DNA of 25,593 nt from a virus. This document shows, piece after piece, positions 1,513 to 24,575 of the stretch. The stretch's first letter is position 1. Each line of letters begins with the position of its first letter. A program made the translations under genes and the position numbers. The DNA lies in IMG/VR virus record IMGVR_UViG_3300021959_004739, positions 1-25,593 of that record. One strand, written 5' to 3'. Under the pieces are notes generated by a model. The model worked only from the letters and a program-made list of their open reading frames with translations, did no database searches and was not told where the DNA came from.

Positions 1513-1586
1513 TGGCAGGCAAACAAGGAATCGAACCTCAGTTTACAGTTTTGGAGACTGTCGTGTTACCACTACACCATTCACCC
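1513..1586 (-). tRNA. tRNA-Trp (anticodon CCA)
   Basis: The minus strand from 1586 to 1513 folds as a full cloverleaf. The 7-bp acceptor stem is GGGTGAA with TTTGCCT and contains three G-U wobbles. The D stem is GTGT/ACAC. The anticodon stem ACAGT/ACTGT closes the loop CTCCAAA, giving anticodon CCA. The T stem TGAGG/CCTTG, with a loop TTCGATT, contains two wobbles. The discriminator is G, as bacterial tRNA-Trp requires, and the 3' CCA is encoded. The gene begins roughly ten bases after the probable end of the tmRNA coding piece, with no terminator between them, so both RNAs are probably cut from one precursor. The wobble-rich acceptor stem is unusual but leaves no mismatch. Confidence 0.9.
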
Positions 1587-1649
1587 TTTGTCAATAAAGT
1601 GCAACTTTTCTGTTGCCAGGTAAGTTGCCAACCCCGTTACCTAGTTAGA

Positions 1650-1679
1650 CTAGGCAGCAAGAGCAAAATTATTGTTTGC
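1650..1679 (-). other. tmRNA tag-peptide reading frame (resume codon to stop)
   Basis: On the minus strand the resume codon GCA at 1679-1677 opens a frame encoding ANNNFALAA followed by TAG. With the alanine carried by tmRNA itself, the full tag would be AANNNFALAA. The ALAA end is the typical protease degron recognised by ClpXP-type proteases. The sequence ATAGAC just before the resume codon resembles the conserved TAGTC element that sets the reading frame in bacterial tmRNA. Confidence 0.9.
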
Positions 1680-1763
1680 GTCTATAAAGTTGCTTGATTT
1701 ACGGTCATCGCCTACCGGTAACTCCACGTTCTCTCATACATCAGTCGATCCTAGTTCGCCCCC

Positions 1764-1831
1764 ATCATAAACACATTGGGATTGTATTGTTCCACGGACG
1801 GTCTTGATACAAACATCGTCCAATGTGCTTA
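1764..1831 (-). other. Excised spacer of the permuted tmRNA precursor
   Basis: This 68-base segment lies between the CCA of the acceptor piece and the first G of the coding piece. Its ends are complementary (1831-1820 with 1779-1768, one G-U), and they extend the acceptor stem into one nearly continuous 23-bp helix broken only by one C-A opposition. An inner GGACG/CGTCC hairpin caps it. In known two-piece tmRNAs this segment is removed to give two separate RNAs held together by base pairing. Confidence 0.8.
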
Positions 1832-1897
1832 TGGTGGAGGCGCGGGGTACCGCCCCCCGGTCCTGTCTGTCGTTGATTGGCTTCAACGTTACAGTTA

Positions 1898-1928
1898 TAT
1901 TTATACTATCATATTATTGGTTTGTCAA
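1898..1928 (-). promoter_or_regulatory. tmRNA promoter: TTGACA-N17-TATAAA overlapping a TATAAATA late motif
   Basis: On the minus strand TTGACA (1928-1923) is followed after exactly 17 bases by TATAAA (1905-1900). The -10 box is also the first six bases of TATAAATA (1905-1898), the T4-type late promoter octamer. The start would fall about 1891, immediately before the acceptor piece. The overlap could allow both early and late transcription. Confidence 0.8.
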
Positions 1929-10027: not shown

Positions 10028-11161
10028 TCAATTGTCTTTCAACTCAGCGAACGCTCGGTTCATTTGTTGGATTTGTTTGCGGTTTATTTTATGTAGTACT
10101 CTGTAGTTGTGATCTACTATCTCTTGTATCTCTTCTGGGTACAATTTAACCATTTCACGGAGTTTATTAGCAGCTTCTACTGTTGCTCTAACGTTACCTT
10201 GATAGTTTTCTTTAATAAACTTTTCAAATGTATGAAATCCTTTAGTTTTAAGGTCATGCAATATACCATTAGTACCTTGTATAACAAACGGACTTCTATT
10301 AAGTATTGCTCTATAAGTCTTTTCTGTAATAAATGTATGCTGCATAGGCTGTGTATACTCCCATGTTTCGCATATGTAACTTACACAAGAGTTGTTATAG
10401 ATTTTATAAGTGTCATTAGAATACCCTTGAGATGTACTAGGATCGTAATCAGGAACACTTACGCTATCAGCAGGACCCCAATGCGGTTCAATTGCTTCTA
10501 AGAATAGTTTTTCTATAGTTTCAGGCAAAGATTTGTTAAAAGCTAGATCGCTGGAAGAGCCTAATAACCCCATAACCGAATTGTCTAGAAGCTGTTGCTT
10601 CCAAAATTCATAAAGAACTTCTGTTCTTTTGTTCTTTCCTACTCTACCTAGCAGTAAATTAATATTAGGCTCTCGTTCAACAACAGGCATAGTACACACA
10701 GGCATACCATTTAGTTCTCGTTGTACTGCTGATATTGCAAATAAATCTATATACTGCGTTTTGTGACGGAACTTAGTTGAGCCTTTGTCCTGATTCTGTG
10801 CTGAAGAGTTTAGTAATACAAGTTTTCGTTCTTGAGGGACAAGTCTAGTTATTTTAAGCAACCTATCAAAATCAGTTTGGCTAATGCCGTCTTCATATGT
10901 AAAGTTGAATACAACATAAGTTTTATTTGATTCGCGCCGTCTAAATTTAATAACCTTTCGTATTTTATCTAGATAGGTCAAATCCGAAGCTGTTGCTAGA
11001 TTTATAAAAACAAAGTATGGACACTTAGAAAGCTGTAATCGTGCATCTAAATAAGGATCTGTTGTGTTTTGATCCTTAGGAAGATAGCTTGTTAATTCAT
11101 TTAGATTATGAGTTGTTGGATCAAAGAATAATGACTTCTCACCAATAGACAACTGTTCCAT
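10028..11161 (-). CDS. Putative glycosyltransferase-like protein, 377 aa
   Basis: The family is not certain. The most telling segment is at residues about 277-316, FITEKTYRAILNRSPFVIQGTNGILHDLKTKGFHTFEKFI. A TEKT..AI...PFV..G....L...GF.TF pattern of this kind recurs in marine phage proteins annotated as glycosyltransferases and resembles the nucleotide-sugar site of fucosyltransferase-like enzymes. The N-terminal half contains alternating hydrophobic strands (YFVFINLA, TYVVFNFTY, KLVLLNSS), consistent with a Rossmann-like GT-B half. No signal or membrane segment is seen. The start codon lies four bases past the stop of the nuclease gene, so the two are cotranscribed. It may decorate phage DNA, virion proteins or host glycans. 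Confidence 0.6.
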   Translation of the reverse strand: MEQLSIGEKSLFFDPTTHNLNELTSYLPKDQNTTDPYLDARLQLSKCPYFVFINLATASDLTYLDKIRKVIKFRRRESNKTYVVFNFTYEDGISQTDFDRLLKITRLVPQERKLVLLNSSAQNQDKGSTKFRHKTQYIDLFAISAVQRELNGMPVCTMPVVEREPNINLLLGRVGKNKRTEVLYEFWKQQLLDNSVMGLLGSSSDLAFNKSLPETIEKLFLEAIEPHWGPADSVSVPDYDPSTSQGYSNDTYKIYNNSCVSYICETWEYTQPMQHTFITEKTYRAILNRSPFVIQGTNGILHDLKTKGFHTFEKFIKENYQGNVRATVEAANKLREMVKLYPEEIQEIVDHNYRVLHKINRKQIQQMNRAFAELKDN

Positions 11162-19131: not shown

Positions 19132-19365
19132 TTACTTGCGATTATAGATATGATATAACACCCAAACAGCAACTAGACCAACTAAGCCCTGTGCAGATAA
19201 CGCTGTTATCATTCCAGTGATGTTGTCTACTACGCTGATGTTTGGCCAGAACGGAATGTTCTGTCCATTGAATAAGACTTCAAGCACGATACCTAAAGCG
19301 ATGAATGATACACCCACTTCAGTAATTGCAGCGGCCCAGCCTTTTACTTTATTTAAGATTTCCAT
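19132..19365 (-). CDS. Small membrane protein, 77 aa
   Basis: The start at 19365 is preceded by AAAGGAG nine bases away; a start twelve codons earlier lacks such support. The product has two membrane helices (about residues 10-31, around EVGVSFIALGIVLEVLF, and about 50-72, around SAQGLVGLVAVWVLYHIY) joined by the loop PFWPNISVVDNITG. I recall similar proteins in T4-like marine phages but cannot name a function. It is transcribed away from the 89-residue gene at 19584. Confidence 0.78.
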   Translation of the reverse strand: MEILNKVKGWAAAITEVGVSFIALGIVLEVLFNGQNIPFWPNISVVDNITGMITALSAQGLVGLVAVWVLYHIYNRK

Positions 19366-19512
19366 GTTGGTTATCTCCTTTTGTTTACTCACTCCACTCA
19401 AGCGTTGAAGTCAGTGTAATATTTAGGTGCATGGAGATAAGAGTAAAAACACCATAAATGGTTTGCGGCGCCTGTAACGCTGATCTTTGGCAAAGAAAAA
19501 TTATTAAATGCG

Positions 19513-19583: not shown

Positions 19584-19853
19584 ATGTCATTAGACAAAAT
19601 CAAAGATGCACTACCTAAAGTGCAATTCAATAAAAACGGTTACGAAATTCGCACAGAAGTGTTAGATATGGCCAAACAATTTACAGAGTTTGAATACTCA
19701 CAGAAGTTTGTTGGTTGGGAAATCAGCGCAAAGCGAGACAAGGAAACTGGCCAAGTTGTTACCAAAGTTGATATGCCAGAAATCCCAGGTGCTAAAGAAG
19801 TCTTAGACACAGCCGAAGAGTTCTACAAGTTCGTAACAGGGACTTCAAAATAG
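19584..19853 (+). CDS. Hypothetical phage protein, 89 aa
   Basis: Starts MSLDKIKDALPKVQFNKNGYEIRTEVL with AAGGAG upstream. The protein is soluble, charged and helical with a central aromatic segment (FTEFEYSQKFVGWEISAKRD) and an acidic tail (AKEVLDTAEEFYKFVTG). I recall similar small proteins in marine T4-like phages without assigned function. It is followed by a terminator that lies just before hemF. Confidence 0.75.
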   Translation: MSLDKIKDALPKVQFNKNGYEIRTEVLDMAKQFTEFEYSQKFVGWEISAKRDKETGQVVTKVDMPEIPGAKEVLDTAEEFYKFVTGTSK

Positions 19854-19955
19854 AAAATTAATACACACAACAGAATAATTTCCTAATTACGGGATGAAGA
19901 TTATATAGAGAACGGCATAGCCTCAGATAATAGGAACATTACATTTGAAGTGGAG

Positions 19956-19986
19956 AAAGGGTAGCCAGGTTGCTACCTTTTCTTTT
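19956..19986 (+). terminator. Terminator or attenuator just upstream of hemF
   Basis: A 10-bp stem (GGTAGC/GCTACC flanked by A/T and G-T pairs) closes a six-base loop and is followed by TTTTCTTTT. It lies 21 bases before the hemF start codon, so it either ends the 89-residue gene or gates transcription into the hem operon. Confidence 0.85.
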
Positions 19987-20007
19987 GAGTACAACTTAAA
20001 TACTTCC

Positions 20008-20826
20008 ATGAACACAATGTATACTGAATGGTTTGCACAACTAGCACAGATCATAGAAGATAACATAAATGAAGTAGAAGCAAGATTCGCACCTAAGGAT
20101 CCTATTAAAATGGATGAAGGTGGACATTCTAGCAGAGAAGGCTGGATACAAACACACAAAGTTATACGTGGAAATGTATTCGAAAAAGGTACAGTAAATT
20201 ACTCTTGTGTAACAGGAGAGTTTGATCCTAGATTTGCAAAAGAGATTCCAGGTACAACTGATAACAATAGACAGTATTATGCCACAGGTATAAGTGTAGT
20301 ATTACACCCTACTAATCCTTGGGTGCCTGCAATGCATTTTAACACACGATATCTTAAAACACATGAGAAAGAATGGTTCGGCGGTGGTATGGATTTAACA
20401 CCTTGCTTGGATAATGAAACATTCAAGATTGGATATCATAGAGAGCTTAAAAAGGTCTGTGATTTGTATGATGCAACTTGGTACGACAAGTTTAGTAAAG
20501 CCTGTGATGAATATTTTTATTTGCCTCATAGAAAAGAAACAAGAGGCATAGGAGGATTGTTCTTTGAGTATTACGATCCTAAAGACATGGACTTTAAATT
20601 TGTAGAATGCCTGGGTATAAAATTTGCAGATGTAATGAGAACAACTGCAATCAATTATATGAACAACAACTACACAGATGAACATAAAGATATACAAAAG
20701 ATCAAACGTGGACGATATGTAGAGTTCAACTTATTATATGACCGTGGAACTAAGTTTGGTTTTAAAACAGGCGGCAACATGGAAGCAATATTAATGAGTT
20801 TACCGCCAGATGTGAGGTGGCCATGA
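20008..20826 (+). CDS. hemF: Coproporphyrinogen III oxidase, oxygen-dependent
   Basis: HemF converts coproporphyrinogen III to protoporphyrinogen IX using oxygen. From the ATG at 20008 the protein is 272 residues. This start puts the GNVFEKGTVNYS block at the usual distance from the N-terminus, whereas a TTG at 19945 would place the terminator hairpin inside the gene. Family motifs are intact: HPTNPWVPAMHFNTRY (His100, His110), WFGGGMDLTP (Asp129), HRKETRGIGGLFFEYYD and GRYVEFNLLYDRGTKFGFKTGG. It stops right after SLPPDVRWP, so it lacks about 25 C-terminal residues found in E. coli HemF, and that part is not encoded elsewhere nearby. There is no Shine-Dalgarno; CTTAAATA ends five bases before the ATG. 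It overlaps the next gene by ATGA. Confidence 0.95.
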   Translation: MNTMYTEWFAQLAQIIEDNINEVEARFAPKDPIKMDEGGHSSREGWIQTHKVIRGNVFEKGTVNYSCVTGEFDPRFAKEIPGTTDNNRQYYATGISVVLHPTNPWVPAMHFNTRYLKTHEKEWFGGGMDLTPCLDNETFKIGYHRELKKVCDLYDATWYDKFSKACDEYFYLPHRKETRGIGGLFFEYYDPKDMDFKFVECLGIKFADVMRTTAINYMNNNYTDEHKDIQKIKRGRYVEFNLLYDRGTKFGFKTGGNMEAILMSLPPDVRWP

Positions 20827-20900
20827 ACACTGGGATAGGCGCTTTAACTGCTGCTATCTTAGCATTCATTGCTTGGGTCATAAGGAAGGTTAGAAAATGA
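20823..20900 (+). CDS. 25-residue single-pass membrane peptide inside the hem operon
   Basis: MNTGIGALTAAILAFIAWVIRKVRK: a short polar start, a hydrophobic helix and a basic end that predicts an N-out, C-in orientation by the positive-inside rule. Its ATG overlaps the hemF stop and its stop overlaps the hemC start, both as ATGA, which argues strongly for translation. Function unknown; anchoring or regulating the heme enzymes at the membrane is a guess. Confidence 0.75.
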   Translation: MNTGIGALTAAILAFIAWVIRKVRK

Positions 20901-21718
20901 AGATAGGTGTCAGGGGAAGTAAACTAGCATTGGAGTACGCAAGTAGAGCAGCAGCTCTAATTAACAATGCTGAGATAGTTACAGTAACAACTGAAGCAGA
21001 AATTAATCCAGACACTCCTATATTAGAAATGGGTGGTAAGGGAGTATTCTGTAAAGCCATCGAACAAAAGTTAATAGACAAAGAAATTGATATTGCTGTT
21101 CACAGTTTAAAAGACTTGCCAAGAGACTCGGACGATATACTAGAAATATCAGCAGTGTTAAAACGTAACGATCCTAGAGATTGTGTAATTGGTAATCCTG
21201 ATAAGCCAGGAGCAAAGATAGGAACAGGTAGTCCTCGTAGAATTGCACAACTAAAAAAATTATATCCACAAGCAGAAATTATTCCTATTAGAGGAAATAT
21301 TGATACTCGCATTGCTAAAGTAGAAAGCGGACAGTATGATGCTATTGTACTTGCTGTTGCAGGTCTTGAAGCATTAAATTTACAAGACAAGATAACAAAA
21401 ACATTTTCAATTAAAGAAATGTTTCCAGCTGTTGGACAAGGAGTTATTGCATTACAAACAAGAAAGAAAAGTTCTGCAAGTAATTTATTATCAACATCTT
21501 CAGACCCAGATACATACAAGTGTGCAATGGCCGAACGCAAGATGCTAGAAGTCATAAACGGTGACTGCCATACTGCTGTTGGTTGCATATCTAGTATCGT
21601 TGGAGATTACTTAATGATGGAAGCTCACAACTTTGAAACTGATAAGTATAGTGAAGTAATAGGTAAAAAAGAAAAATACCTAGAACTAGGTGAGCAACTA
21701 GGAATAAAACTTATATGA
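20897..21718 (+). CDS. hemC: Porphobilinogen deaminase (hydroxymethylbilane synthase)
   Basis: HemC joins four porphobilinogens into hydroxymethylbilane. The 273-residue protein keeps the key residues: Asp73 in HSLKDLP (E. coli Asp84), the arginines of GSPRR and RGNIDTR, GQG in PAVGQGVIALQ, and the dipyrromethane-attachment cysteine in NGDCHTAVG (Cys224, aligned with E. coli Cys242). It is about 40 residues shorter than the bacterial norm, mostly at the C-terminal domain. It overlaps both neighbours by four bases. No HemD (uroporphyrinogen III synthase) is fused or adjacent, so host HemD must close the ring, or the product would cyclise to the unproductive I isomer. Confidence 0.96.
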   Translation: MKIGVRGSKLALEYASRAAALINNAEIVTVTTEAEINPDTPILEMGGKGVFCKAIEQKLIDKEIDIAVHSLKDLPRDSDDILEISAVLKRNDPRDCVIGNPDKPGAKIGTGSPRRIAQLKKLYPQAEIIPIRGNIDTRIAKVESGQYDAIVLAVAGLEALNLQDKITKTFSIKEMFPAVGQGVIALQTRKKSSASNLLSTSSDPDTYKCAMAERKMLEVINGDCHTAVGCISSIVGDYLMMEAHNFETDKYSEVIGKKEKYLELGEQLGIKLI

Positions 21719-22692
21719 ATGAAAAATTTAAGAATGCCTGCAATAGGGTAGAACAGTCTTGTCCTCCAATATGGATGATGAGACAGGCAGGAAGATATCA
21801 GCAACCTTATATGGAGATGAAAGAGCGTTTCACATTTGAGCAGATGTGTAAACTTCCAAGGGTAGCAGCTGATGTAGCAATGCTTCCAATTGATCAATTT
21901 GACTTTGATATTGCAATACTGTTTAGCGACATACTATTTCCTATTGAAGGATTAGGTGTGCCTTTAAAATTTGCACCAGGTCCACAGTTTGATTATTATA
22001 TCAATGAGGAAAACTATAGAGAACATAAAGATATTTCACGTGCAGTAGAACACATGGAGTTTCAAAAGGTTGCGGTTGCTGCAACTAGAGAGAAACTGCA
22101 TAAATCAAAAAGTCTAATAGGCTTTGTTGGTGGACCGTGGACATTATTAAACTACGCTACAGGTAAGAAGCCTAACATGGATTTAAAATGGAAGGCAGCG
22201 TATATGGAAGAAGTTATTGTTCCTGTGTTAACACGCAACATACATCTACAACTAGAAGCAGGTGCAGAGAAAGTTATGATACTTGACAGTGGTGTAGGTG
22301 ATATGAGCGAATCATTCTTTAAAACACATTACGTTAATATATTACAGCCACTAATACAAACTGATACAGGATATTACACACAGCATTTAAATTCAAGATG
22401 CTTACCTTCTTTGTATAGAATGGGATGGGCAGGAATAGGTATTGATAGTACTGTTGATATACATAGAACATTTAAAAAATATAAAGACGGATTTATCCAA
22501 GGTAACTTTGATGAGAAACTTATGATGTTGCCTAGACAGTATTTAAAAACAGAAATTAACGAATGGCTTGATGGTATGGAGCATGTTGATAGAACTGGTT
22601 GGGTATGTGGACTAGGACATGGCATACATAAAGAAACTCCAGAAGAAAATGTAAAATTGTTTGTGGATATGGTTAGGGAAAGATATTCATGA
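21715..22692 (+). CDS. hemE: Uroporphyrinogen decarboxylase
   Basis: HemE removes four carboxyl groups from uroporphyrinogen III to give coproporphyrinogen III. The 325-residue protein shows the full signature: PPIWMMRQAGRYQQPY (Arg23 and Arg27), FSDILFP (Asp72, the catalytic aspartate), GFVGGPWTLLNY and, near the end, GLGHGIHKETPEENV with the conserved His. Length is slightly below the usual 340-355. It overlaps hemC and hemB by ATGA. Together with host HemD it links the HemC product to HemF, so the operon runs the route toward heme or chlorophyll rather than siroheme or cobalamin, which branch before HemE. Confidence 0.97.
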   Translation: MNEKFKNACNRVEQSCPPIWMMRQAGRYQQPYMEMKERFTFEQMCKLPRVAADVAMLPIDQFDFDIAILFSDILFPIEGLGVPLKFAPGPQFDYYINEENYREHKDISRAVEHMEFQKVAVAATREKLHKSKSLIGFVGGPWTLLNYATGKKPNMDLKWKAAYMEEVIVPVLTRNIHLQLEAGAEKVMILDSGVGDMSESFFKTHYVNILQPLIQTDTGYYTQHLNSRCLPSLYRMGWAGIGIDSTVDIHRTFKKYKDGFIQGNFDEKLMMLPRQYLKTEINEWLDGMEHVDRTGWVCGLGHGIHKETPEENVKLFVDMVRERYS

Positions 22693-23543
22693 AACTAATA
22701 CAACCATACTTTATTAGTAATCAAGGTAACGGAGATGATTGGGTACTTGCATCTAAACAGTCTGTCCTTGGTAACGACAATCACCCGTGGTCAGTTAAGG
22801 GCGCAATAGATACTATCGGTAGAGATATTGCTCTTGGGGTTAAAGATATTTTAGTATTTGTTATGCCTGAAAGATCTGAAATGCCAGATTGGGATTTGAA
22901 TAAACGTGTTGTTAGCGAAATTAAAGCAGCATACGGAGATAAAGTAAACCTGCATGTTGATATATGTTTGTGTTCTACTACACTAGATGGACACTGTTGT
23001 TATCCTACTGATGCCGCAAAGACAGACGAACAACTATTCGAACAAGCAAGTGTTGTATATGAAGCCGGAGCAGATGTACTTGCACCTAGTGATTGTCAAG
23101 ATAATACTGTAAAAAATATTAAAGAACATATTAATAAAGTAGATGTAATGAGCTATTCAACTAAGTTTAGATCACAATTCTATGATGGCTTTAGACAAAC
23201 TATTGGAGTTGAAAAAGGTATACATAGAAGTTATCAATTAGATGTAAATGATAGAGAACTTGCTATTGCTAGAAGTGTAAAGTATTTTAATGACGGTGCT
23301 ACTAGTTTAATGGTTAAGCCTGGCATGACCAGCATTGATCTTATTATGCCTATTAAAGAAGCAACCAAGTATCAAGCACCTGTCGGTGTATATCAAACAA
23401 GCGGCGAATACATTGGCTTACAAAGAAACAGTTGGCTAGTTCCACAGATGTTAAAAGAAACGCATGATGTTTTTAAACGTGCTGGTGCTGACTTTATGAT
23501 TACTTACGGTGCTAGGGAATTATATAAACAGGCTGCTAACTGA
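22689..23543 (+). CDS. hemB: Delta-aminolevulinate dehydratase (porphobilinogen synthase)
   Basis: HemB condenses two 5-aminolevulinates to porphobilinogen. In the 284-residue product the metal site is the cysteine type: DICLC...GHCC gives Cys93, Cys95 and Cys103, the same spacing as the zinc cysteines of E. coli. Both substrate lysines are present: Lys159 in MSYSTKF and Lys210 in LMVKPGM, plus YQTSGEY. The protein is about 40 residues shorter than usual, chiefly at the N-terminal arm that helps octamer assembly. It is the last gene of the operon although it catalyses the first of the four steps. Its final 24 bases overlap the convergent prs gene. Confidence 0.95.
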   Translation: MKLIQPYFISNQGNGDDWVLASKQSVLGNDNHPWSVKGAIDTIGRDIALGVKDILVFVMPERSEMPDWDLNKRVVSEIKAAYGDKVNLHVDICLCSTTLDGHCCYPTDAAKTDEQLFEQASVVYEAGADVLAPSDCQDNTVKNIKEHINKVDVMSYSTKFRSQFYDGFRQTIGVEKGIHRSYQLDVNDRELAIARSVKYFNDGATSLMVKPGMTSIDLIMPIKEATKYQAPVGVYQTSGEYIGLQRNSWLVPQMLKETHDVFKRAGADFMITYGARELYKQAAN

Positions 23544-24473
23544 TTCTTCGTTAGTTATTCTACGCATTGCTTCACCGAACAAAGGTGCTACACTTACTTG
23601 ACGTGTTTTCTTACAGTTCTTAGGACAACGATTAGCAATAGTATCTGTAACAACTAATTCATCAAGCACACTTTTTTCAATCTTTAAACAAGCATCACCT
23701 GACAATACTCCATGTGTAATATAAGCACGAACTGACAATGCACCGGCATCCATAATTGCTTTGGCTGCATTACAAAGTGTTCCGCCACTATCAATAATAT
23801 CATCTACTAGGATAGCATGTCGTCCTTTAACATCACCAATCAAGTTCATTACTTCTGACTTGCCTGCTTCAGGACGCATTTTATCTACAATAGCAATGTC
23901 ACCTGTAAACATGTCAGCAAACTTACGAGCTCTTACTGCTCCACCTGCATCTGGAGATACAAACACTGTACCTTGTTGATTAACTTCAGGATCATCAATA
24001 ATACCTATTGTACGTTTAATGTCTTTAGCAAATGCAATTCTACTTGTTAAGTCATCAACAGGAATATCAAAGAAGCCTTGTATCTGTCCTGCATGTAGAT
24101 CCATAGTTAAGATTCTATCTGCACCAGATGTTGTTAATAAGTTAGCAACTAGTTTTGCTGTGATAGGTGTACGACTTGCACTCTTACGATCTTGTCTTGC
24201 ATACCCATAATAAGGAATAACTGCTGTAATACGACTAGCACTTGATCTACGTGCCGCATCAATCATTACCATTAGTTCCATAAGACTGTCATTAACTGGT
24301 TGACTTGTGCTTTGGATAATAAAAACATCTTCGCCTCTAACGTTTTCTAAAAACTCTACGCTAGATTCTCCATCTGCAAATGTGGAAACGTTAGCCGGAA
24401 CAAGATCACTAAAACAATGTTCAGCGATCTCTTGTGCTAATTTAGGATTAGCATTTCCTGTAATGATTTTCAT
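23520..24473 (-). CDS. prs: Ribose-phosphate pyrophosphokinase (PRPP synthetase)
   Basis: Prs makes PRPP from ribose 5-phosphate and ATP for nucleotide and NAD synthesis. The 317-residue protein has the flexible ATP loop (PYYGYARQDRK), the DLHAGQIQGFFDIP segment and the PRPP-binding loop ILVDDIIDSGGTLCNAA. Length is normal. The ATG at 24473 matches the family start (MKIITGNANPKLA), but a TTG two codons earlier sits better behind AGGAAGGA and could be the true start. T4-like phages often carry Prs, sometimes with a nicotinamide phosphoribosyltransferase that refills NAD; none is seen here. Its end overlaps hemB. Confidence 0.96.
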   Translation of the reverse strand: MKIITGNANPKLAQEIAEHCFSDLVPANVSTFADGESSVEFLENVRGEDVFIIQSTSQPVNDSLMELMVMIDAARRSSASRITAVIPYYGYARQDRKSASRTPITAKLVANLLTTSGADRILTMDLHAGQIQGFFDIPVDDLTSRIAFAKDIKRTIGIIDDPEVNQQGTVFVSPDAGGAVRARKFADMFTGDIAIVDKMRPEAGKSEVMNLIGDVKGRHAILVDDIIDSGGTLCNAAKAIMDAGALSVRAYITHGVLSGDACLKIEKSVLDELVVTDTIANRCPKNCKKTRQVSVAPLFGEAMRRITNEESVSSLFI

Positions 24474-24575
24474 CTTCAAATGTAGTCCTTCCTTTGTGTG
24501 ATGTTGTACTTATACAATAACATGTATTTTCTTTAAGATCAAGAAAAATAAAGTCAACTCGTGATCTTTTTTCTC

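Follow-up and report, generated by a model that had tools for sequence, protein, structure and literature searches.

A Phage Operon of Four Heme-Pathway Genes and Its Possible Link to Bilin Formation

Introduction

Why should a phage carry a run of genes for the core of heme biosynthesis? The question is raised by a viral record of 25,593 bases in IMG/VR (IMGVR_UViG_3300021959_004739; the whole stretch is referred to here as the window), which encodes an oxygen-dependent coproporphyrinogen III oxidase (HemF), a hydroxymethylbilane synthase (HemC), a uroporphyrinogen decarboxylase (HemE), and a porphobilinogen synthase (HemB) in that order. We propose that the phage owns these genes as a working set of heme-pathway enzymes, which would raise tetrapyrrole flux during infection, partly toward a bilin of the phage's own; we put the probability of this reading at roughly 0.55. 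The family to which each hem gene belongs is nearly certain, and the reading of the four as parts of one pathway is likely.

A Heme Operon Shared among Viral Contigs

All four hem frames are open and lie on the plus strand (Table 1), with four-base overlaps between hemC and hemE and between hemE and hemB. Eleven further viral contigs, with 11 metagenome ids, have the same hemF-hemC-hemE-hemB order. The first-pass annotation of the window had described a coupled phage operon for these four enzymes, and both the recurrent order and the Pfam families bear this out, with the correction that a short open reading frame (ORF) lies between hemF and hemC and is coupled to both. IMG/VR was scanned with short peptide patterns, and our counts are of contigs found in scans that were not exhaustive: 5 for HemB, 11 for HemC, 11 for HemF, and 31 for HemE. 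Recurrence was counted per contig, several overlapping loci of one contig being merged. The 11 contigs form about five groups by identity to the window, so that together with it they stand for fewer than 12 independent populations.

The neighborhood is shared as well. A convergent prs gene lies beyond hemB in 11 of the 11 other four-gene contigs and overlaps it in most, and prs is found near hemE where hemB is absent. On the left, the ORF at the edge of the cassette has matches in a 107-kb sibling contig (G009, 85% identical), in a 280-kb viral record (G060, 54%), and in a 57.5-kb contig (G035, 52%), and the ORF at 19132–19401 is present in 8 of the 11. Farther left are a ribonucleotide reductase pair, an exonuclease, a peroxiredoxin, a PAAR/baseplate-like protein, and appendage-like and virion-protein families. 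Based on the shared neighbors, the virion families, and the collinear 280-kb viral record, the hem genes sit among phage genes and not in a host chromosome. The first-pass annotation had named one outcome that would undo it, an assembly joining a bacterial chromosome to phage DNA. Such a chimera, or contamination, is ruled out by identical junctions in 11 contigs with 11 metagenome ids; the 107-kb contig is collinear, and the nearest cell proteins found are only about 39–52% identical. We consider a chimera hardly credible.

All four Hem proteins far surpass their Pfam cut-offs (215.9 bits for HemC; the others in Table 1). The NCBIfam equivalog cut-off is reached by HemC alone; HemF falls below it by 1.4 bits (295.6 versus 297), HemE well below (TIGR01464, 212.5 versus 302.95 bits), and HemB likewise (166.9 versus 297 bits). 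The last is thus a HemB-family protein by Pfam that is not classed as an equivalog. None of the four proteins matched a PHROGs family at an E-value of 0.001. Matches in an annotated phage collection (9, 10, 2, and 12 records for the four proteins, at identities of 25–39%) were not counted as phage relatives, as we took them for bacterial DNA filed under phage labels (Salmonella, Listeria, Acinetobacter, Staphylococcus, and Escherichia); bacterial origin is less clear for five faecal 'Bacteriophage sp.' records among them.

Catalytic Residues, Selection, and an Unusual HemB

The window proteins retain 76 of 85 (HemF), 34 of 42 (HemC), 51 of 54 (HemE), and 36 of 59 (HemB) columns that are invariant among cell homologues. 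The HemF columns were defined from 20 cell homologues. The counts leave out L254 and L284, which are copies of genes of a 1.2-Mb genome (G449), and the cell set leaves out G449 itself and, for HemC, two rows of the HIMB59 type (see below). The HemB, HemC, and HemE catalytic residues that the first-pass annotation had picked out are in place: the Schiff-base lysines K159 and K210 of HemB, and the cofactor cysteine C224 and catalytic aspartate D73 of HemC, fall in columns that do not vary among cell homologues, as does D72 of HemE. The last is one of five HemE residues, with R23, R27, Y147, and H302, that we take to belong to the active site and that are all among its retained invariant columns. 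Ratios of nonsynonymous to synonymous substitution (dN/dS) range from 0.06 to 0.31 in 41 of 41 gene pairs drawn from the window and five relatives. Taken with the intact catalytic residues, these values indicate that the four hem genes probably encode functional enzymes.

HemB is the least conventional of the four. An alignment of 17 sequences shows that it carries the cysteine triad of zinc enzymes (DICLC...GHC), as does the HemB of G449, whereas the aligned SAR11 and HIMB59-type HemBs have DVALDP...GHDG in its place. The N-terminal arm of known HemB enzymes holds the octamer together and governs assembly. Three of three phage sequences have gaps at five arginine columns and one glutamate column of this arm, none of which varies across 43 cell sequences. 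Phage HemB is thus an unusual natural armless form, which may be free of assembly control or else less active. An AlphaFold model of HemB built from five phage sequences was too poor to be used (mean predicted local distance difference test score, pLDDT, 50.7).

Linkage to 5-Aminolevulinate Synthase and Bilin Genes

Relatives of the window extend the gene set in both directions along the pathway. A 5-aminolevulinate (ALA) synthase gene, alaS, is present in 3 of 33 viral records (571–578 bits versus a cut-off of 338.55), all of them hemFCEB contigs (G001, G006, and G009), in which it lies 7.0, 7.6, and 7.7 kb beyond hemB. In the remaining eight four-gene contigs no more than 7.5 kb of sequence follows hemB, and in the window no more than 2.1 kb; the window's own phage probably has alaS and bilin genes beyond the 25.6-kb contig. 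Two bilin genes are also present in the longest sibling, G009: one for a heme oxygenase and one for a ferredoxin-dependent bilin reductase whose nearest relative, that of pelagiphage Mosig, is 51% identical.

A scan of IMG/VR for AlaS gave 497 relatives. Among the best 80 of these we found a second operon type, hemF-hemC-hemE (61, 61–62, and 70% identity) without hemB, beside prs in L077–L079. The largest contig of this type, G035, combines hemFCE, alaS, heme oxygenase, and bilin reductase. Overall, bilin reductase occurs in 9 of 40 records, including G009, G035, and G036, the last of which has hemC and alaS. The 280-kb record G060 carries alaS and both bilin genes, with neither a hem gene nor prs between the left-edge ORF and alaS. 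This comparison of a few genomes suggests that alaS and the bilin genes are older and that hemFCE, hemB, and prs were inserted between them in one branch.

Two further genes were noted in G009. One, between prs and alaS (91383–92447, equivalent to L058 11383–12447, minus strand), encodes a protein of the membrane desaturase/hydroxylase family (PF00487, 100.5 bits) that appears AlkB-like by eye. The other (L057 5963–7069, minus strand) is weakly similar to ring-hydroxylating oxygenase alpha subunits (PF00848, 26.8 bits).

HemD was found in none of 33 and none of 39 viral records, most of which are fragments; the same search was positive in 12 of 14 control genomes. Ferrochelatase was likewise found in none of the 33 records, mostly fragments, with 8 of 14 controls positive. 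The expectation in the first-pass annotation that the host must supply HemD therefore stands, but its assumption that ALA comes from the host alone need not hold, because the siblings whose contigs reach far enough carry alaS.

Proposed Pathway and Alternatives

According to the reading we favor, ALA from the host and, in the siblings, from phage AlaS would be converted by HemB and HemC to hydroxymethylbilane, which host HemD would close to the type III isomer. HemE and HemF would then lead to protoporphyrinogen IX, and a host oxidase and ferrochelatase would complete heme, part of which would be destined for the phage heme oxygenase and bilin reductase seen in G009 and G035. The set would amount to an assisted bilin route combined with a heme supply kept up during host gene shut-down. 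A phage with AlaS, HemB, and HemC could form hydroxymethylbilane starting from central metabolites. Without HemD, this compound cyclizes to the dead-end type I isomer, and HemF requires the type III isomer; host HemD is thus the predicted partner. As the phage oxygenase and reductase would consume heme, it is sensible for the phage to bring heme-making genes along. In a bolder form of this proposal, which we hold only tentatively, a lineage of jumbo-type, uncultured phages would lead glycine and succinyl-CoA almost all the way to a bilin pigment. AlaS, HemB, HemC, HemE, HemF, heme oxygenase, and bilin reductase would be phage-borne, HemD, protoporphyrinogen oxidase, and ferrochelatase would be borrowed, and the armless zinc-type HemB would escape assembly control.

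Several observations weigh against the favored reading. The window contig stops short of alaS and has no bilin genes. HemB has lost its N-terminal arm and, of 59 invariant columns, retains just 36, so that its assembly and activity are in doubt. HemD was undetected in three of three genomes taken as HIMB59-type; if such cells are hosts, their HemD must be a divergent or fused one. Single hem genes also occur: hemE is present without hemB, hemC, or hemF in the sequence examined of 20 contigs (L050, which corresponds to G029 27310–28287, L032, L034–L047, L049, and L051–L053), which belong to phages unlike the window's type; hemB is present without hemF, hemC, or hemE in the 9.5-kb contig L006; and hemC lies near the contig end, as the sole hem gene of the sequence examined, in L083 and L084. 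The steps are therefore not invariably retained together. In 19 of the 20 hemE-only contigs, kdsA and/or kdsB lies beside hemE, which is conserved there and places this decarboxylase in a 3-deoxy-D-manno-octulosonate (KDO) gene cluster.

The closest competitor, which we judge somewhat unlikely, is that the genes serve heme replenishment only, sustaining host respiration through its cytochromes after shut-off, with no special link to bilins. HemB and HemC stand upstream of all tetrapyrroles, the window contig has no bilin gene, support of respiration has been proposed for phage alaS (PMC11480375), and ferrochelatases occur in pelagiphages too (PMC9599517; Mosig annotation). However, G009 and G035 combine hem genes with alaS, heme oxygenase, and bilin reductase, and the oxygenase would drain the very heme being replenished. 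The 20 hemE-only contigs bear on another possibility, that the enzymes divert or sabotage host metabolism by drawing off ALA and porphyrinogens that would otherwise serve siroheme, cobalamin, or host heme control, or by building up photosensitising porphyrins late in infection; from what is known of the pathway, HemE uses up uroporphyrinogen III, at which the branch to siroheme and cobalamin departs. Yet HemE on its own may just ease one slow step, and HemF and HemB would contribute nothing to such diversion in the four-gene cassette, so we regard it as improbable.

Some of the proteins, especially the drifted HemE and HemB, could instead act on other substrates or have structural roles. This would fit their scores far below the NCBIfam equivalog cut-offs, the lost HemB arm, and the 23 of 59 invariant columns from which HemB departs. 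It is harder to square with the retained catalytic residues, with purifying selection, with an operon that combines several steps of one pathway, and with a HemE closest to that of a cellular hem operon, and we think it more improbable still than diversion. A link to bacteriochlorophyll supply, raised in the first-pass annotation, found no support in this analysis.

Relation to Known Phage Heme Genes

Phage heme genes are not wholly new; the hemFCEB operon is a much fuller set than the published ones considered here. With phage alaS (PMC11480375) and the enzymes listed in PMC7029224 on record, the placing of phage tetrapyrrole genes downstream of heme in the first-pass annotation is outdated. 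Wegner et al. (2024; PMC11480375) report phage alaS together with the hemO-pcyX pair and show one alaS to be active. Their marine and freshwater examples, in which alaS accompanies hemO-pcyA/pcyX, resemble the hem-operon siblings in sharing AlaS and bilin genes, but what is reported there is alaS and heme breakdown, whereas here the steps from ALA to protoporphyrinogen IX, except HemD, are present as well. A word search of the main text of that paper gave no occurrence of hemB, hemC, or hemF (hemE being indistinguishable from 'heme').

Zaragoza-Solas et al. (2020; PMC7029224), in one sentence, credit the pelagimyophage PMP-MAVG-4 with coproporphyrinogen oxidase, porphobilinogen deaminase, GMP reductase, and formate dehydrogenase. 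GMP reductase is also encoded by G009, which has curli CsgG too, and PMP-MAVG-4 may be a relative. The comparison is one of description, and the section in question mentions no HemE, HemB, or operon. Pelagiphage ferrochelatases (PMC9599517; Mosig) are similar in being heme-pathway enzymes of phages of marine alphaproteobacteria, but they catalyze the terminal step, which was not found in the 33 viral records here. Viral heme-biosynthesis genes appear as a category in PMC13184970; PMC9301287, PMC9636769, and PMC8115048 gave nothing on point for heme or porphyrin. Among the open-access full-text matches listed, with subscription papers, preprints, and supplements outside the scope, none describes a phage operon of hemFCEB or connects such an operon with alaS and bilin genes.

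Heme oxygenase and bilin reductases in phages of apparently non-photosynthetic hosts are a standing puzzle, and the co-occurrence of alaS with bilin genes is called 'still enigmatic' in PMC11480375. The presence of upstream heme steps in the same genomes makes this puzzle testable: either the bilin repays the cost of its heme, or heme supply limits infection. The one consistent gap, HemD, predicts a host enzyme that must stay working during infection. If the bolder form of the proposal is correct, non-photosynthetic marine bacteria would be given a phage-run bilin pathway.

Origin of the Enzymes and Possible Hosts

Cell homologues were sampled from 398 Pseudomonadota genomes for HemB, HemC, and HemE and from 385 Alphaproteobacteria for AlaS; the HemF scan was pattern-driven and used the best 80 of 258. 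Within this sampling, the best identities are about 49% over the full length for HemF (56% over a 219-residue partial match, L187), 45% for HemC, 48% for HemE, 39–43% for HemB, and 58% for AlaS. In this limited sampling of cells there was no sign of a recent transfer from a known host for any of the genes.

Phage HemE is nearest to HemE of marine alphaproteobacterial single cells (46–48%). One of these cells, AG-337-I02, has been assigned to the order HIMB59 (PMC8692485) and named SAR11 clade V (PMC12965618); similarity and gene order suggest grouping the other single cells with it as HIMB59-type. In a HemE tree built without L284, the phage sequences form one clade (support 100/99). Its neighbors are HIMB59-type cells (87/71), a placement that is not firm and carries a long-branch warning. 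Phage HemC falls with the one SAR11 sequence that its set contains (97 by a quick method, with the same warning), phage HemF forms its own branch beside alphaproteobacteria, and phage HemB is nearest to G449. That genome has a hemC-hemB-hemE-hemH-hemF-hemJ cluster with alaS adjoining (L344 6342–13315; hemH and hemJ named by eye).

A comparable cellular operon, hemC-hemE-hemH-hemF-hemJ, occurs in HIMB59-type cells (L345 and L346). Like the phage operon it brings hemC, hemE, and hemF together, with an alaS-like gene beside it, and its HemE is the nearest cell relative found of phage HemE. It differs in having hemH and hemJ (again named by eye) and no hemB in the cluster, in a HemC of 502 residues that is about 30% identical to phage HemC, and in the metal-site type of its HemB.

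HemD is present in seven of seven genomes taken as SAR11 (one match being partial, at the end of a contig) and in two of two other alphaproteobacteria; it was undetected in G449, as in the HIMB59-type genomes. Where HemD was undetected, HemC is about 500 residues long (L344 7700–9178, L345 12044–13552, and L346 5818–7326). Because of this length, a divergent or fused HemD is possible in HIMB59-type cells and G449, and the extra C-terminal part of HemC may be such a HemD. Arguing indirectly from the relatives of the enzymes, we consider SAR11 and HIMB59-type cells plausible hosts.

Expression Signals and a Short ORF

Before hemF, a terminator-like hairpin with a T-rich tail is followed by a candidate late promoter, CTTAAATA (Table 1). 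The hairpin and tail were seen by eye in 13 of 13 contigs inspected; folding of the window's hairpin gave a z-score of -2.83, with 2 of 200 shuffles equally stable. The motif CTTAAATA precedes hemF in 12 of 12 four-gene contigs and is absent from the second operon type (L079). The T4 late promoter motif is TATAAATA. As CTTAAATA recurs in all 12 contigs after a terminator-like hairpin, we propose late expression of the hem operon as a unit of its own, which is what these signals point to.

General scans flagged neither element: a sigma-70 promoter scan gave 17 sites versus 22.7 expected and passed over the candidate promoter, and a consensus terminator scan gave 4 versus 2.7 expected and passed over the hairpin. 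The T4-type late-promoter-like motif NATAAATA is enriched before ORFs in G009, G035, G029, and G060. Counts at 8–45 bases before a mechanically called ORF are 12/27 in G009 (0.8 expected) and 25/49 in G060 (1.2 expected). The corresponding signal for NTTAAATA is weaker, 4/35 in G009 (1.0 expected) and 14/51 in G060 (1.2 expected); the window count of 0/10 leaves out the motif before hemF, where the mechanically called ORF begins at 19945.

The short ORF that overlaps the hemF stop and the hemC start is open in 12 of 12 four-gene contigs, with an ATG start in the window and GTG in the other 11. It has 25 codons in six of the 12 and 29 codons in the other six, in which one base is missing and the peptide ends in NEDRR; it is absent from the second operon type (L079). 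The predicted peptide could serve to anchor the enzymes to the membrane.

Table 1. Features of the hem cassette and its edges in the window
Feature	Position	Strand	Remarks
Conserved phage ORF, left cassette edge	19584..19853	+	Present in 11/11 other four-gene contigs
Hairpin with T-rich tail, terminator-like	19959..19986	+	After the left-edge ORF
Candidate late promoter, CTTAAATA	19995..20002	+	13 nt before hemF start
hemF, oxygen-dependent coproporphyrinogen III oxidase, 272 aa	20008..20826	+	PF01218, 269.7 bits; same place in 11 other contigs
Short ORF, 25 codons, MNTGIGALTAAILAFIAWVIRKVRK	20823..20900	+	Overlaps hemF stop and hemC start; hydrophobic, basic end
hemC, hydroxymethylbilane synthase, 273 aa	20897..21718	+	TIGR00212, 267.6 bits versus cut-off of 164; D73, C224 kept
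hemE, uroporphyrinogen decarboxylase, 325 aa	21715..22692	+	PF01208, 212.6 bits; R23, R27, D72, Y147, H302 kept
hemB, porphobilinogen synthase, 284 aa, without N-terminal arm	22689..23543	+	PF00490, 175.1 bits, from profile position 26
prs, ribose-phosphate pyrophosphokinase, right cassette edge	23520..24479	-	NF002320, 456.1 bits; convergent

Phage Lineage and Other Features

The nrdA gene of the window, about 72% identical to nrdA of cyanophages and of Mosig, gave the first idea of its lineage, a T4-like pelagimyophage. This assignment is weakened by comparisons of gene content and terminases but keeps some weight through the bilin reductase, which is nearest to that of Mosig, and through the gp13 placement described below. 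Mosig matches 5 of 38 window ORFs (median identity 34.5%) and 18 of 158 G009 ORFs (32.7%), but the window and G009 contain few core structural genes. The 280-kb G060 matches 16 of the 38 window ORFs, 15 of them in order, and G009 matches 30 of the 38 and is collinear. By gene content the flanks, called T4-like in the first-pass annotation, are nearer to G060 than to Mosig, and 'T4-like' fits the lineage only loosely.

The hemE-only G029 shares 54 of 110 ORFs with G060 and matches only 2 of the 38 window ORFs. The terminases of G029 and G060 are 59% alike, and the nearest annotated relatives of the former are in Pseudomonas phages of about 285–288 kb. These comparisons suggest that a jumbo-type myophage may well be the source of the window. 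On the other side, neither G009 nor G035 gave a match to the G029 terminase, and the alaS contigs of PMC11480375 were placed with pelagimyophages by a gp13 tree.

Other features of these genomes were noted in passing. G029 encodes a protein (22013–23749, equivalent to L061 2013–3749, minus strand) that by eye resembles a TonB-dependent outer-membrane receptor, here phage-encoded. The 377-residue protein at 10028–11161 of the window (minus strand) is 99% identical in G035 and has no match in the closer relative G009, perhaps reflecting a recent exchange between phages. A permuted transfer-messenger RNA (tmRNA) gene with the tag ANNNFALAA (1559–1926, minus strand) overlaps a tRNA-Trp gene (1513–1586, minus strand) in the window, and its counterpart in G009 (L057 5441–5892, minus strand) has the tag ANDNFALAA.

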